From a virus, in the IMG/VR virus record IMGVR_UViG_3300030103_000498, positions 1 to 43,305 of that record: a stretch of DNA of 43,305 nt. The stretch is one strand, 5' to 3'. Under the pieces are notes generated by a model. It was not told the origin of the DNA, made no database searches, and saw only the letters and a list, made by a program, of their open reading frames with translations. This document shows positions 3,300 to 42,137 of the stretch, in pieces; position 1 is the first letter of the stretch, and each line of letters opens with the position of its first letter. The position numbers and the translations under genes were made by a program.

Positions 3300-5187
3300 C
3301 TACTTACCAACCGACTACCAAAGCTTTATACACAAGTCACGGTACGCTAAATACATTGATGGAAAGGGTAGAGAATCTTGGCCTGAAACAGTTAGCCGTT
3401 ACATAGGTAACGTAGTAGGTGACAAGGTAGATAAAGAAACATCTACTGAGATAGAGCAAGCTATCCTGTCGTTAGACATCATGCCTAGCATGAGAGCCAT
3501 GATGACAGCAGGACCAGCTTTGGATAGAGACAACACTGCAGGATATAATTGTAGCTACTTACCTGTAGATGATCCAAAGTCCTTTGATGAGGCTATGTAC
3601 ATCCTGCTCTGTGGAACTGGTGTCGGCTTCAGTGTTGAGAGGCAGTTCATTAGCAAGCTTCCCGAAGTGCCTGAACTGTTCGATAGTGATACTACCATTG
3701 TGGTAAAGGACAGCAAGGAGGGCTGGGCTAAGGCGTTCAGACAATTGTTGGCACTCTTATGGGCAGGTGAGATTCCTAAGTGGGATGTTAGCAGAGTACG
3801 CCCTGCAGGTTCAAGGTTAAAAACATTTGGTGGTAGAGCCAGTGGACCTGCACCCCTTGTTGAGCTATTTAACTTTGCAGTAAAGACATTTAAGGATGCT
3901 CAAGGGCGTAGGCTATCTAGCTTAGAATGCCATGACCTAATGTGTTTCATTGGTCAGATAGTTGTAGTAGGTGGTGTTAGACGTAGTGCTATGATTAGTT
4001 TGTCTAATCTCAGTGATGATAGGATGCGTCATGCTAAGTCAGGACAGTGGTGGAACGAAGCTGCACACAGAGCTTTAGCTAATAACAGTGTGTCATACAC
4101 AGAGAAACCAGATTCGGAAACGTTTATGCGTGAGTGGTTATCTTTAGTAGAAAGTAAGTCAGGAGAACGTGGTGTATTCAATCGTCAAGCAAGTAAGAAT
4201 CAAGCTGCTAAGTATGAAAGGCGTGATCCTGACCATGAGTTTGGAACTAATCCTTGCTCTGAAATTATTCTTAGACCATATCAGTTTTGTAATCTTACTG
4301 AAGTGGTGGTTAGGGCTACGGATAACGTGGATGATCTGGAAAGAAAAGTTAAACTGGCTACTATTCTTGGTACGATTCAATCAACGTACACCAAGTTTCC
4401 ATACTTGCGGAAGGTGTGGACAACGAATACGGAAGAGGAGCGTCTGTTGGGTGTGTCACTCACAGGGATAATGGACAATCCTCTTATGACATCAACAAAC
4501 AAAGGATTGGAGAAGACTCTTGAACATTTACGAGAAACTGCTGTTCGTACTAATAGTGACTGTGCTAACCGCCTTGGCATTGCACCAAGTGCAGCAATTA
4601 CCTGCGTCAAACCTAGCGGAACAGTATCACAATTAGTTGACTCAGCATCAGGTATACATGCACGTCATGCACTACATTACATTAGAACTGTGCGTGGTGA
4701 CAATAAAGATCCACTTACACAAATGATGAAAGATCAAGGTATACCTAACTCACCTTGCGTTATGAAACCTGATAGCACTACAGTGTTTAGTTTCCCAATG
4801 AAGTCACCAAGAAAAGCTGTAACTCGAAACGATATGACAGCCATTGAACAGTTGGAGACATGGCTAACTTATCAGCGACACTGGTGTGAACACAAGCCTT
4901 CCGTAACAGTAACGGTTCGCTCAGATGAGTGGATGGAAGTAGGCGCATTTGTTTATAAACACTTTGATGAAATGTCAGGCGTGTCTTTCCTACCTCACTC
5001 AGATCACACTTATCAACAAGCACCATACCAAGATTGTACTAAGGATGATTACAATAAACTTAGTAAGATAATGCCAAAGAGTATTGATTGGTCTAAGCTT
5101 AGTGAGTATGAACAAGAAGATAACACAGTTGCTATGCAAACAATGGCTTGCAGTGGTGACGTGTGCGAAATAGTAGACATAGTATAA
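3292..5187 (+). CDS. nrdJ: Class II (B12-dependent) ribonucleoside-triphosphate reductase
   Basis: A 631-residue monomeric adenosylcobalamin-dependent reductase that makes dNTPs from rNTPs for phage replication. Key residues: C87 (GYNCSY) and C333 as the redox pair, the active-site motif N320-P-C322-S-E324 with C322 as thiyl radical site, and the C-terminal shuttle cysteines C620 and C625 (CSGDVC). This matches the layout of Lactobacillus leichmannii RTPR. It is shorter than that enzyme (739 residues), typical of phage forms. It needs host-supplied cobalamin. The gene closes the nucleotide-metabolism operon; 40 bases of non-coding DNA follow. Confidence 0.95.
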   Translation: MNNYLPTDYQSFIHKSRYAKYIDGKGRESWPETVSRYIGNVVGDKVDKETSTEIEQAILSLDIMPSMRAMMTAGPALDRDNTAGYNCSYLPVDDPKSFDEAMYILLCGTGVGFSVERQFISKLPEVPELFDSDTTIVVKDSKEGWAKAFRQLLALLWAGEIPKWDVSRVRPAGSRLKTFGGRASGPAPLVELFNFAVKTFKDAQGRRLSSLECHDLMCFIGQIVVVGGVRRSAMISLSNLSDDRMRHAKSGQWWNEAAHRALANNSVSYTEKPDSETFMREWLSLVESKSGERGVFNRQASKNQAAKYERRDPDHEFGTNPCSEIILRPYQFCNLTEVVVRATDNVDDLERKVKLATILGTIQSTYTKFPYLRKVWTTNTEEERLLGVSLTGIMDNPLMTSTNKGLEKTLEHLRETAVRTNSDCANRLGIAPSAAITCVKPSGTVSQLVDSASGIHARHALHYIRTVRGDNKDPLTQMMKDQGIPNSPCVMKPDSTTVFSFPMKSPRKAVTRNDMTAIEQLETWLTYQRHWCEHKPSVTVTVRSDEWMEVGAFVYKHFDEMSGVSFLPHSDHTYQQAPYQDCTKDDYNKLSKIMPKSIDWSKLSEYEQEDNTVAMQTMACSGDVCEIVDIV

Positions 5188-37886: not shown

Positions 37887-38173
37887 TTTTTGCCTTTAAC
37901 TTTTTTAACTACTTTAGTTGTCCAAGCTTCATTCTCAGGTGTATCAGGGTCATCAGCAATATAGTGACCTTTTTCATTTCTAGCTCTAACAGTTTCAACT
38001 GTAGCTTTACCTGCCATCAAAGCTTCTAGTTCTGGTACTTCAGTTATAAACCCACCGTCACGATCTGGCTTATCCATTACTACTGCTTTATTACTGTCTA
38101 TAACTGTGTTACCCATTACAGTGTAACCTAGAGATTCTATAGCTTCTTCTTGCTCTTTAGTTAAGTCGGTCAT
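37883..38173 (-). CDS. Hypothetical small protein
   Basis: A 96-residue protein with N-terminal TDLTKEQEEAIESLGYTVMG and a basic C-terminus (TKVVKKVKGKK). It overlaps both neighbours (one and four bases) in the late block, which supports expression. No domain recognised. Confidence 0.68.
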   Translation of the reverse strand: MTDLTKEQEEAIESLGYTVMGNTVIDSNKAVVMDKPDRDGGFITEVPELEALMAGKATVETVRARNEKGHYIADDPDTPENEAWTTKVVKKVKGKK

Positions 38174-38547
38174 TACTTACGAGCCTTTCTGTTTGGTGGA
38201 ACTGATGCACCTGCATTAGCTCTAATTTTACCACCTTTAGCCATGCCTTTTTTCTTCATCATAGCACCGCCATTAGCCATACCTTTTTTCTTCATCATGG
38301 CTCCACCTTTAGCCATGCCTTTTTTCTTTTTCTTTTTAGCCATACCACCGTTAGCCATTTTGCCTTTGCCATCAGCAGCGTAAAACGGAACCATCTTTCC
38401 ATCTTTACCCTTGACCATTTTCAAGCCACCTGCTGCATAACCTTTTTTCTTCATGCCGCCCTTAGCGTAGCCCTTCTTTTTCATACCGCCTTTGGCATAG
38501 CCTTTTTTCTTCATGCCGCCTTTAGCGTATCCCTTCTTCTTCATCAT
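38173..38547 (-). CDS. Extremely basic Lys/Gly repeat protein
   Basis: A 124-residue protein made of tandem units: MKKKGYAKGG four times (last copy ends AAGG), then KGKDGKMVPFYAADGKGK, then KKKKKKGMAKGG and two AMMKKKGMA(N/K)GG units. It has dozens of lysines and almost no acidic residues, so it should bind nucleic acid strongly. GAGGA lies eight bases before the first ATG. Similar Lys/Gly repeat proteins occur in pelagiphages. A DNA-condensing or virion DNA-neutralising role is inference. Confidence 0.78.
   Translation of the reverse strand: MMKKKGYAKGGMKKKGYAKGGMKKKGYAKGGMKKKGYAAGGLKMVKGKDGKMVPFYAADGKGKMANGGMAKKKKKKGMAKGGAMMKKKGMANGGAMMKKKGMAKGGKIRANAGASVPPNRKARK
38425..38544 (-). repeat. 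Four tandem 30-base coding repeats (KKKGYAKGG)
   Basis: Direct repeats of 30 bases encoding MKKKGYAKGG, near-identical at protein level with silent differences between copies. More diverged AMMKKKGMA(N/K)GG units follow at about 38200-38330. Confidence 0.85.
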
Positions 38548-40471: not shown

Positions 40472-40650
40472 GATTTGTATCCTCCACCTTTTGCTTTATA
40501 CTGCTTGGCAAGCATCTGCGCTTTACGTGCTGACCATTGTCCAGGGCTTCCACCTTTACCACTTGCTTTGATCCTGTTAAATAAGTTCTTACGCATTGTC
40601 GGTTTGGTGTAGTTACCAGCAGCATTAACTGTACTCTTCTTCTTTACCAT
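40468..40650 (-). CDS. Small basic conserved-type protein
   Basis: A 60-residue protein: KKKSTVNAAGNYTKPTMRKN, then LFNRIKASGKGGSPGQWSAR and KAQMLAKQYKAKGGGYKS. I recall this pattern from many cyanophage and pelagiphage genomes, where it is annotated as hypothetical. It is strongly basic and glycine-rich at the end. It overlaps both neighbours by a few bases. Confidence 0.8.
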   Translation of the reverse strand: MVKKKSTVNAAGNYTKPTMRKNLFNRIKASGKGGSPGQWSARKAQMLAKQYKAKGGGYKS

Positions 40651-40928
40651 GCTTTACAACTCCAATATCTTGCTGTGAATTTATCTGTTGCTGTATCACA
40701 ATTATGTCTAGCCCGAAAGCTTTTACGTCTTTCAGGGTTATCTTTCTTGATACTCATATTAGGATCACCGAAACGAACTACCTTTACCTGCTCACCCTTC
40801 TTGGCTAACACGGCTGACTTCTTTGCAGCGCCTGGGGTCTTCTTAGGTTTGTTGTACCCTGGGTATGTTTCACCACGGTACTTTAATTTTCCGCTAGGTA
40901 AACGTTCTACATCTTTAGTTGTAGCCAT
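40644..40928 (-). CDS. Small basic conserved-type protein (DUF6321-like)
   Basis: A 94-residue protein with LPSGKLKYRGETYPGYNKPK, QVKVVRFGDPNMSIKKDNPE and RRKSFRARHNCDTATDKFTA. These blocks recall a DUF6321-like family common in marine phages. It contains two cysteines (HNCDTA, WSCKAW) and ends in aromatic residues. Function unknown. Confidence 0.8.
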   Translation of the reverse strand: MATTKDVERLPSGKLKYRGETYPGYNKPKKTPGAAKKSAVLAKKGEQVKVVRFGDPNMSIKKDNPERRKSFRARHNCDTATDKFTARYWSCKAW

Positions 40929-40937
40929 TGGTGTTCC

Positions 40938-41306
40938 TTAAAATGTTATACGCGCACCCATAGTGATGTCACTAAACTCAAAGTCACGATCTGATGATAC
41001 TTCAGAGTACAGCTTTATGTTTGTGTCTGGTAGGGTGTAGTCTACTACGTAATCCAAGCCTGTAAATACTTCATCAGCTTGTAGATCAAGCATATCTATT
41101 GTAGTTTCTACAGAGAAGTTAACTCCACTGTATTCAACACCTGCGCTGGGTACAAGTTCCCAATTCCACTCTTCAATGCCTGTCGTATAGTTAATATCGT
41201 TCTCTGCTCCAATTGACAGAGTTTGTCCTGCTACTGGAATGTCCATCGCTACTGCTGGTGCAGCTATCATGCTCGACAATCCTAATACTACTGCTAAATT
41301 TTTCAT
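40938..41306 (-). CDS. Exported, outer-membrane-like beta protein
   Basis: A 122-residue protein with a classic signal peptide (KNLAVVLGLSSMIAAPAVA, cleavage near residue 20). The mature part alternates polar and hydrophobic residues (VNFSVETTIDMLDL; YVVDYTLPDTNIKLYSEVSS) and ends MGARITF, a C-terminal Phe as recognised by the Bam machinery of outer-membrane barrels. About 102 mature residues is short for a lone eight-strand barrel. It may oligomerise or act as a partial porin-like protein. In a phage this suggests surface modification, superinfection exclusion or lysis; no function is established. Confidence 0.75.
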   Translation of the reverse strand: MKNLAVVLGLSSMIAAPAVAMDIPVAGQTLSIGAENDINYTTGIEEWNWELVPSAGVEYSGVNFSVETTIDMLDLQADEVFTGLDYVVDYTLPDTNIKLYSEVSSDRDFEFSDITMGARITF

Positions 41307-41327
41307 TTTGTGTCTCTCTATATTATT

Positions 41328-41687
41328 TTAATTTCTGGGGTCCATCATGTCCATGTGGTCACGATTCATAAACTTCATAGTGTTTTCCAACAAAGCTAAT
41401 CTTTGCTGTATGGCAGTGATAGCGCCTATCGTTTTGGTTAAGCTTTCTGTTTCTTCCCATAGTTCTTCTATCTCAGCAAACGCACCATCGATGTAATCCA
41501 TGTTGTCTTGCACGTCACGCTTGAGATTAACGTTATCCTCTACAGCCATCTTACTAGCAAACTGTGAGACTGACTCTTCTAAGCTTTCTATAGTAGCAGC
41601 TTGTTGCGATACCCACCACACACCACCTGCTAGTTGTGCACCCATCGCTACTACAAGTGCTATAGGTAACTTCATATTGCTATCCAT
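41328..41687 (-). CDS. Membrane-anchored coiled-coil protein
   Basis: A 119-residue protein with one N-terminal membrane segment (KLPIALVVAMGAQLAGGVWW) and a long periplasmic-side coiled coil (about 28-105; SLEESVSQFASKM, AEIEELWEETESLTK). Type II topology with coiled coil resembles inner-membrane spanins, but no partner lipoprotein is seen. I prefer ATG 41687 (AGGGA eight bases before it) to the GTG at 41693. It is the second gene of the late block. Confidence 0.72.
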   Translation of the reverse strand: MDSNMKLPIALVVAMGAQLAGGVWWVSQQAATIESLEESVSQFASKMAVEDNVNLKRDVQDNMDYIDGAFAEIEELWEETESLTKTIGAITAIQQRLALLENTMKFMNRDHMDMMDPRN

Positions 41688-41937
41688 ATTCACGTTCCCT
41701 GTCTGGATCTAGTACTTCATGCTTAGTTAACATACCCTCAAGATACATTGCACGTTCAACGTGGTCTAACGTGTACCATTCACCAGTACGATTATATATT
41801 GCTTCTCTAACGTAAAACACATCCGACTTTGGAATGTGTACTTTACGTATTGCACGAGCGTCATTGTTAGCTAATGCATTGTAAAAATCTGTTAACACAT
41901 CTTCGGATGCATATAGTTTTACTTTGGATTTATCCAT
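41680..41937 (-). CDS. Hypothetical protein, first gene of leftward block
   Basis: An 85-residue soluble protein (MDKSKVKLYASEDVLTDFYN; ARAIRKVHIPKSDVFYVREA) with mixed alpha/beta character. I start at ATG 41937; TTG 41943 is the only upstream option. There is no clear ribosome binding site before the ATG, which is odd for this genome. It overlaps the next gene by eight bases. No family recognised. Confidence 0.65.
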   Translation of the reverse strand: MDKSKVKLYASEDVLTDFYNALANNDARAIRKVHIPKSDVFYVREAIYNRTGEWYTLDHVERAMYLEGMLTKHEVLDPDREREYG

Positions 41938-42107: not shown

Positions 42108-42137
42108 AGTATAACATTAGTGTTTTAATACTGTCAA
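42108..42137 (-). promoter_or_regulatory. Leftward sigma70-like promoter P1
   Basis: On the - strand TTGACA (42132-42137), 18-base spacer, TATACT (42108-42113). It would give a leader of about 165 bases before the ATG at 41937, including the 12-base inverted repeat. Confidence 0.6.

Follow-up and report, generated by a model that had tools for sequence, protein, structure and literature searches.

A very small phage-encoded protein of probable outer-membrane beta-barrel type, carried as a one-gene cassette in an HMO-2011-type phage, with relatives in other marine phages

The window, a 43,305-nucleotide stretch of viral DNA (IMG/VR record IMGVR_UViG_3300030103_000498), encodes on its minus strand a 122-residue protein (40938..41306, ATG start, TAA stop). 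The sequence, conservation across the family and the predicted structure give good support to its export and to a beta fold of outer-membrane type. From these features we infer insertion by Bam, location in the outer membrane and barrel closure. Sequence comparison establishes the gene, its conservation, its leader, its beta pattern, its cassette nature and its neighbourhoods. Our reading of the protein as an accessory channel or permeability factor for small solutes is tentative, held with somewhat less than even confidence.

A conserved family in marine phages

On the plus strand, stops interrupt reading at 40938-41306, and the pairwise dN/dS ratios of the mature part (0.05-0.18) mark the minus-strand ORF as a real gene. 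IMG/VR scans retrieved close relatives at 12 loci (84-93% identity, full length), a 116-residue branch at about 45% identity and further branches. In a larger locus set, 157 loci carry a family member; the number of distinct contigs is smaller, since overlapping pieces of the same contig account for some of the loci. Like the window itself, many relatives are fragments, and most relatives come from uncultured phages. The net charge of the mature protein ranges from -9 to -19 across the family.

No significant sequence match was found in Pfam, PHROGs, the PDB or isolated phages. Pfam matches to outer-membrane families were weak and below threshold (Phenol_MetA_deg, 0.0022; DUF1302, 0.07), and the Pfam profile of the Lom/Ail family gave no match at E<=1. 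Two short-pattern scans of GTDB genomes, which reach close relatives only, returned no host homologue.

The portal protein of the record is 84% identical to those of Roseobacter phages CRP-2 and CRP-603 and 70% identical to that of HMO-2011, which identifies the record as an HMO-2011-type phage. The order of the portal, the terminase and the small-gene arm agrees with that of such phages. The family also occurs in marine phages outside the HMO-2011 type. Among the several short basic proteins encoded in the arm is a Lys/Gly-rich protein of low complexity with KKGYAKGGM repeats (window 38173-38547).

Export leader, strand pattern and predicted fold

The leader comprises residues 1-20 (MKNLAVVLGLSSMIAAPAVA; 41247..41306, minus strand), with a basic n-region, a hydrophobic core and an AVA motif ahead of the likely cleavage site. 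By simple n/h/c-region rules and by its conservation, it corresponds to the signal peptide that an earlier note on this DNA had proposed, and to the Sec signal peptide expected, on these rules, of outer-membrane beta-barrel proteins. In a first family set of 93 ORFs, some from overlapping loci, 88 passed a filter for a leader and a terminal aromatic residue; the remaining five are truncated at contig ends, and no other plausible ORF in these loci combines both features. Leader and terminal Phe are retained in all full-length members checked, and the lack of a functional signal peptide, which the earlier note had named as a refuting outcome, did not appear. Export seems to have outlasted an apparent leader swap in one relative, L008. 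Its mature part shares 98% DNA identity with L001, but its leader (83% identity to that of L268, 64% to that of L001) seems to have been exchanged for one like those in a different branch; the new leader, too, is a signal peptide.

The mature part (102 residues from M21; 40941..41246, minus strand; net charge -17) ends in Phe122 (...ITMGARITF), so that translation bears out both the proposed length and the proposed terminal residue. The alternation of hydrophobic and polar residues, also claimed in advance, held up as well: its level was matched by one of 2000 shuffles of the mature part and, for the family profile, by one of 5000 column permutations, and 15 other proteins of the window scored lower. 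The protein thereby combines the amphipathic strands and the C-terminal Phe of integral outer-membrane beta-barrels.

AlphaFold2 predicted a beta-meander with 39 relatives (mean pLDDT 75.6, pTM 0.60) and with 57 relatives (mean pLDDT 78.6, pTM 0.66). In the monomer models the leader is disordered and is followed by seven strands, the first one short. The confident soluble, non-barrel fold that would have spoken against the proposal did not emerge. Foldseek returned nothing from the PDB at E<=0.001, its top matches being OMPLA and porins at E 0.03 or worse, and with VIA-align 2 most of the highest-ranked matches were outer-membrane barrels (Z up to 8.6), avidin-like barrels also appearing; these scores lie within the range that unrelated models also attain and may mean a common arrangement only. 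The best structural matches in the PDB were mainly OMPLA, OmpF/OmpC, the R. blastica porin, KdgM, NanC and OmpG. KdgM/NanC/OmpG-type and classical porins have 12-16 strands. The predicted meander resembles slices of such barrels, whose chains are roughly 170-350 residues long compared with about 100 here, and a PDB search gave no sequence match.

In our model, the membrane would be crossed by six amphipathic strands, each about 9-14 residues long, with both termini of the protein in the periplasm, a topology drawn from the even strand number and the terminal Phe. Periplasmic termini would place loops 1 and 3, the best conserved, outside the cell. Loop 1 (YTTGIEEW; 41166..41189, minus strand) has a mean entropy of 0.79 and loop 3 (SSDRDFEFSD; 40968..40997, minus strand), the most conserved, one of 0.61 (alignments A2, A4 and A6), compared with about 1.2-1.7 for the strands. 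Loop 2 (DMLDLQADEVFTG; 41058..41096, minus strand), also putatively extracellular, is acidic. Such conservation of outside loops is, in our judgement, unusual among surface proteins. All closed monomeric bacterial outer-membrane barrels known to us have eight or more strands. Six strands fall below this minimum, so that several chains probably act together as an oligomer; alternatively, the short N-terminal strand may complete a barrel of smaller size. The inward-facing residues of the mature protein are mostly acidic.

An exported soluble beta protein of the periplasm, not integrated into the outer membrane, would suit the strong acidity, a mature length that is short for an outer-membrane barrel, and the presence of avidin-like soluble barrels among the structural matches. 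We regard it as the least likely of the alternatives, since the six strands have a hydrophobic face, the terminal Phe is invariant and the best matches are outer-membrane barrels.

A one-gene cassette and its neighbours

The gene forms an inserted one-gene cassette (40929..41327, minus strand) that consists of a 21-nt spacer with purine-rich AGAGAGA, the ORF and a 9-nt spacer. Downstream lies a small, basic, conserved gene (phrog_7595; 40644..40928, minus strand), which served for finding relatives. The upstream gene (41328..41693, minus strand) encodes an N-terminal TM segment and a coiled coil and gave a weak Rz-like spanin match (phrog_739, E 0.0011); we treat it as a neighbour whose topology would fit an i-spanin. 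In the isolates CRP-2 and CRP-603, the homologues of the two flanking genes are adjacent, with no small outer-membrane gene, and 1-6 bp separate the upstream stop from the downstream ATG in L098, L070, L018 and others; about 400 nt, gene included, separate the same two genes in the window. Among 16 large HMO-type records chosen through the flanking genes, two carry the gene.

The intergenic site between the coiled-coil and phrog_7595 genes is an insertion hotspot whose small-gene content varies among relatives (L099, L101, L145, L148, L152, L161 and L162). Upstream of the gene string, a sigma-70-like promoter match (TTGACA-18-TATACT, 11/12; 42108..42137, minus strand) is a consensus match only, the number of such matches in the region equalling chance. 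A Cys-containing protein of 61-64 residues with the start MWxAxxL.C often adjoins the outer-membrane gene (L192:4797-4991 and many other loci). Strict pairing of the two was rejected, the Cys protein occurring at 6 of 13 loci with the outer-membrane gene and at 38 of 147 others.

The gene order, a TM/coiled-coil protein followed by a small exported envelope protein of outer-membrane type, mimics Rz/Rz1, and lysis genes lie near in many relatives. The protein might then help lysis by weakening or bridging the outer membrane as an o-spanin substitute, possibly with the upstream protein as its inner-membrane partner. The weak Rz-like match would agree with such a role, as would a lipobox scan of the window, in which no credible lipoprotein came up. 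Kongari et al. (2018, PMC6139136) suggest that phages lacking spanins might use an OMP in the o-spanin role, and the phages they list as spanin-less include several cyanophages carrying the PF24653 protein discussed below. Many family members have an M15 endolysin gene (phrog_465) and a holin-like gene nearby. Among the other large HMO-type records, all ten with the outer-membrane gene (G004, G005, G017-G019, G033-G035, G037, G039) contain phrog_465, and none of 14 without the outer-membrane gene does. However, phrog_465 is missing from window-type records, and eight other records bear it and no outer-membrane gene. These exceptions speak against a strict pairing with the endolysin, and the association probably reflects lineage. 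Nor is strict pairing with the coiled-coil gene supported, since that gene persists in many relatives without the outer-membrane gene. Furthermore, distant family members adjoin phosphate genes, and the window is a fragment, so that a spanin could lie elsewhere. The lipobox of an o-spanin is absent: the protein (P0001) contains no cysteine, and it differs from a short lipoprotein of the Rz1 kind by its SPase I-type leader and its beta-barrel pattern. A lysis helper is, on balance, unlikely.

A one-gene accessory cassette at a variable site, in few of the records, would also suit a surface-remodelling protein that blocks or masks a receptor and excludes sibling or rival phages. The best-conserved parts are the putatively extracellular loops, a pattern that would fit binding to a conserved target on the surface, and exclusion proteins acting on outer-membrane receptors are known, such as Cor on FhuA (PMC11436027). 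However, the gene lies in a string toward packaging and structural genes and may thus be expressed late, at a stage where exclusion would bring less benefit; no receptor is known, and the phosphate-gene neighbours of distant members are left unexplained. We therefore hold this role to be improbable.

Possible solute entry and the cyanophage parallel

An outer-membrane solute channel leads among the readings because of the neighbours of distant members in other phages, which adjoin PstS (L331/L332, L320/L321) or a Na+/Pi cotransporter (L328/L329, apparently the same locus as L320). The earlier note had suggested receptor blocking, nutrient entry or help with lysis; nutrient entry is the best supported of the three, circumstantially, through these neighbours. 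At the apparently shared locus, PstS (L320:2708-3679) and the cotransporter (L328:3067-3540) replace each other. In non-HMO phages, the outer-membrane gene is immediately preceded by a tmRNA gene with the tags ANDNFAPSGFALAA and ANDNFAPTGYALAA (L311:1009-1397; L331/L332:3642-4022; readable in L320 at about 3640-4000).

As a solute channel, the protein would be expressed along with the minus-strand gene string that continues into the genes for packaging and structure. Sec would export it, insertion into the host outer membrane would follow, and an oligomeric channel would help small solutes to enter the infected cell, with a possible link to phosphate uptake in some related phages. Membrane location, oligomer, channel activity, substrate and timing are inferred. 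Neither PstS nor a Na/Pi cotransporter was found in the tested HMO-type carriers of the gene, window included, and no PhoH above the cut-off in HMO-type records with the gene. The phosphate-linked loci showed no credible upstream Pho box, and two other non-HMO locus types (L311; L314-L323) had no phosphate-uptake gene on the contig. The mostly acidic inward residues and the negative net charge throughout the family would count against an anion channel.

A weak structural match to cyanophage 'DUF680' proteins led to a P-SSM4 protein that matches Pfam PF24653 (Phage_OMP). Since 462 cyanophage records encode a similar protein, the earlier statement that phage outer-membrane proteins are rare was too strong, and it is in this part, not in export or the outer-membrane-type fold, that the earlier interpretation is not supported. 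Like the proteins of PF24653/phrog_417 ('DUF680', T4-GC 241), the window protein is small, phage-encoded and beta-rich, has a signal peptide and ends in an aromatic residue, Phe. The mature part of the cyanophage proteins has about 93-104 residues, and their gene sometimes adjoins pstS (S-SCSM1 and SynMITS9220M01, two of nine cyanophages examined). They differ in their cyanobacterial hosts and in a charge that is mostly less acidic (-2 to -13). A PF24653-type protein has been reported from the virion proteome of cyanophage S-SZBM1, with mention of pho boxes in the upstream region of its gene (PMC9146016).

Homology between the two families was ruled unproven. The PF24653 profile matched neither P0001 (E<=1) nor 39 + 9 further members (control P0002, 7.9e-40), the A4 profile reached the P-SSM4 protein at a non-significant E of 2.7, and hhalign gave a probability of 5-14%. 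With a profile comparison probability of only 14%, the cyanophage parallel is best taken as an analogy: this kind of protein is already known from cyanophages, and the present family stands, by sequence, without demonstrated homology to it. Marine phages also encode outer-membrane pore proteins, through the CsgG/CsgF genes of pelagimyophages and of OM43 phage Melnitz, whose role is debated (PMC9004378); these form a separate family, with a CsgG-type multimeric pore and periplasmic helices.

More speculatively, and with considerable doubt, the family may represent a new minimal outer-membrane type, each chain having six strands and about 100 residues. Such proteins would form an oligomeric pore and be traded as a single-gene cassette between unrelated marine phages, retuning the outer membrane of the host for nutrient entry during infection. 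A confirmed oligomeric barrel of this size would rank with the smallest outer-membrane building units found in nature, and the relatives beside phosphate genes offer a way to test the function. If the proposal is true, tiny outer-membrane proteins are carried not by cyanophages alone but also by phages of the abundant HMO-2011 type and by further marine phages, adding a level of host takeover that is overlooked in present annotation.
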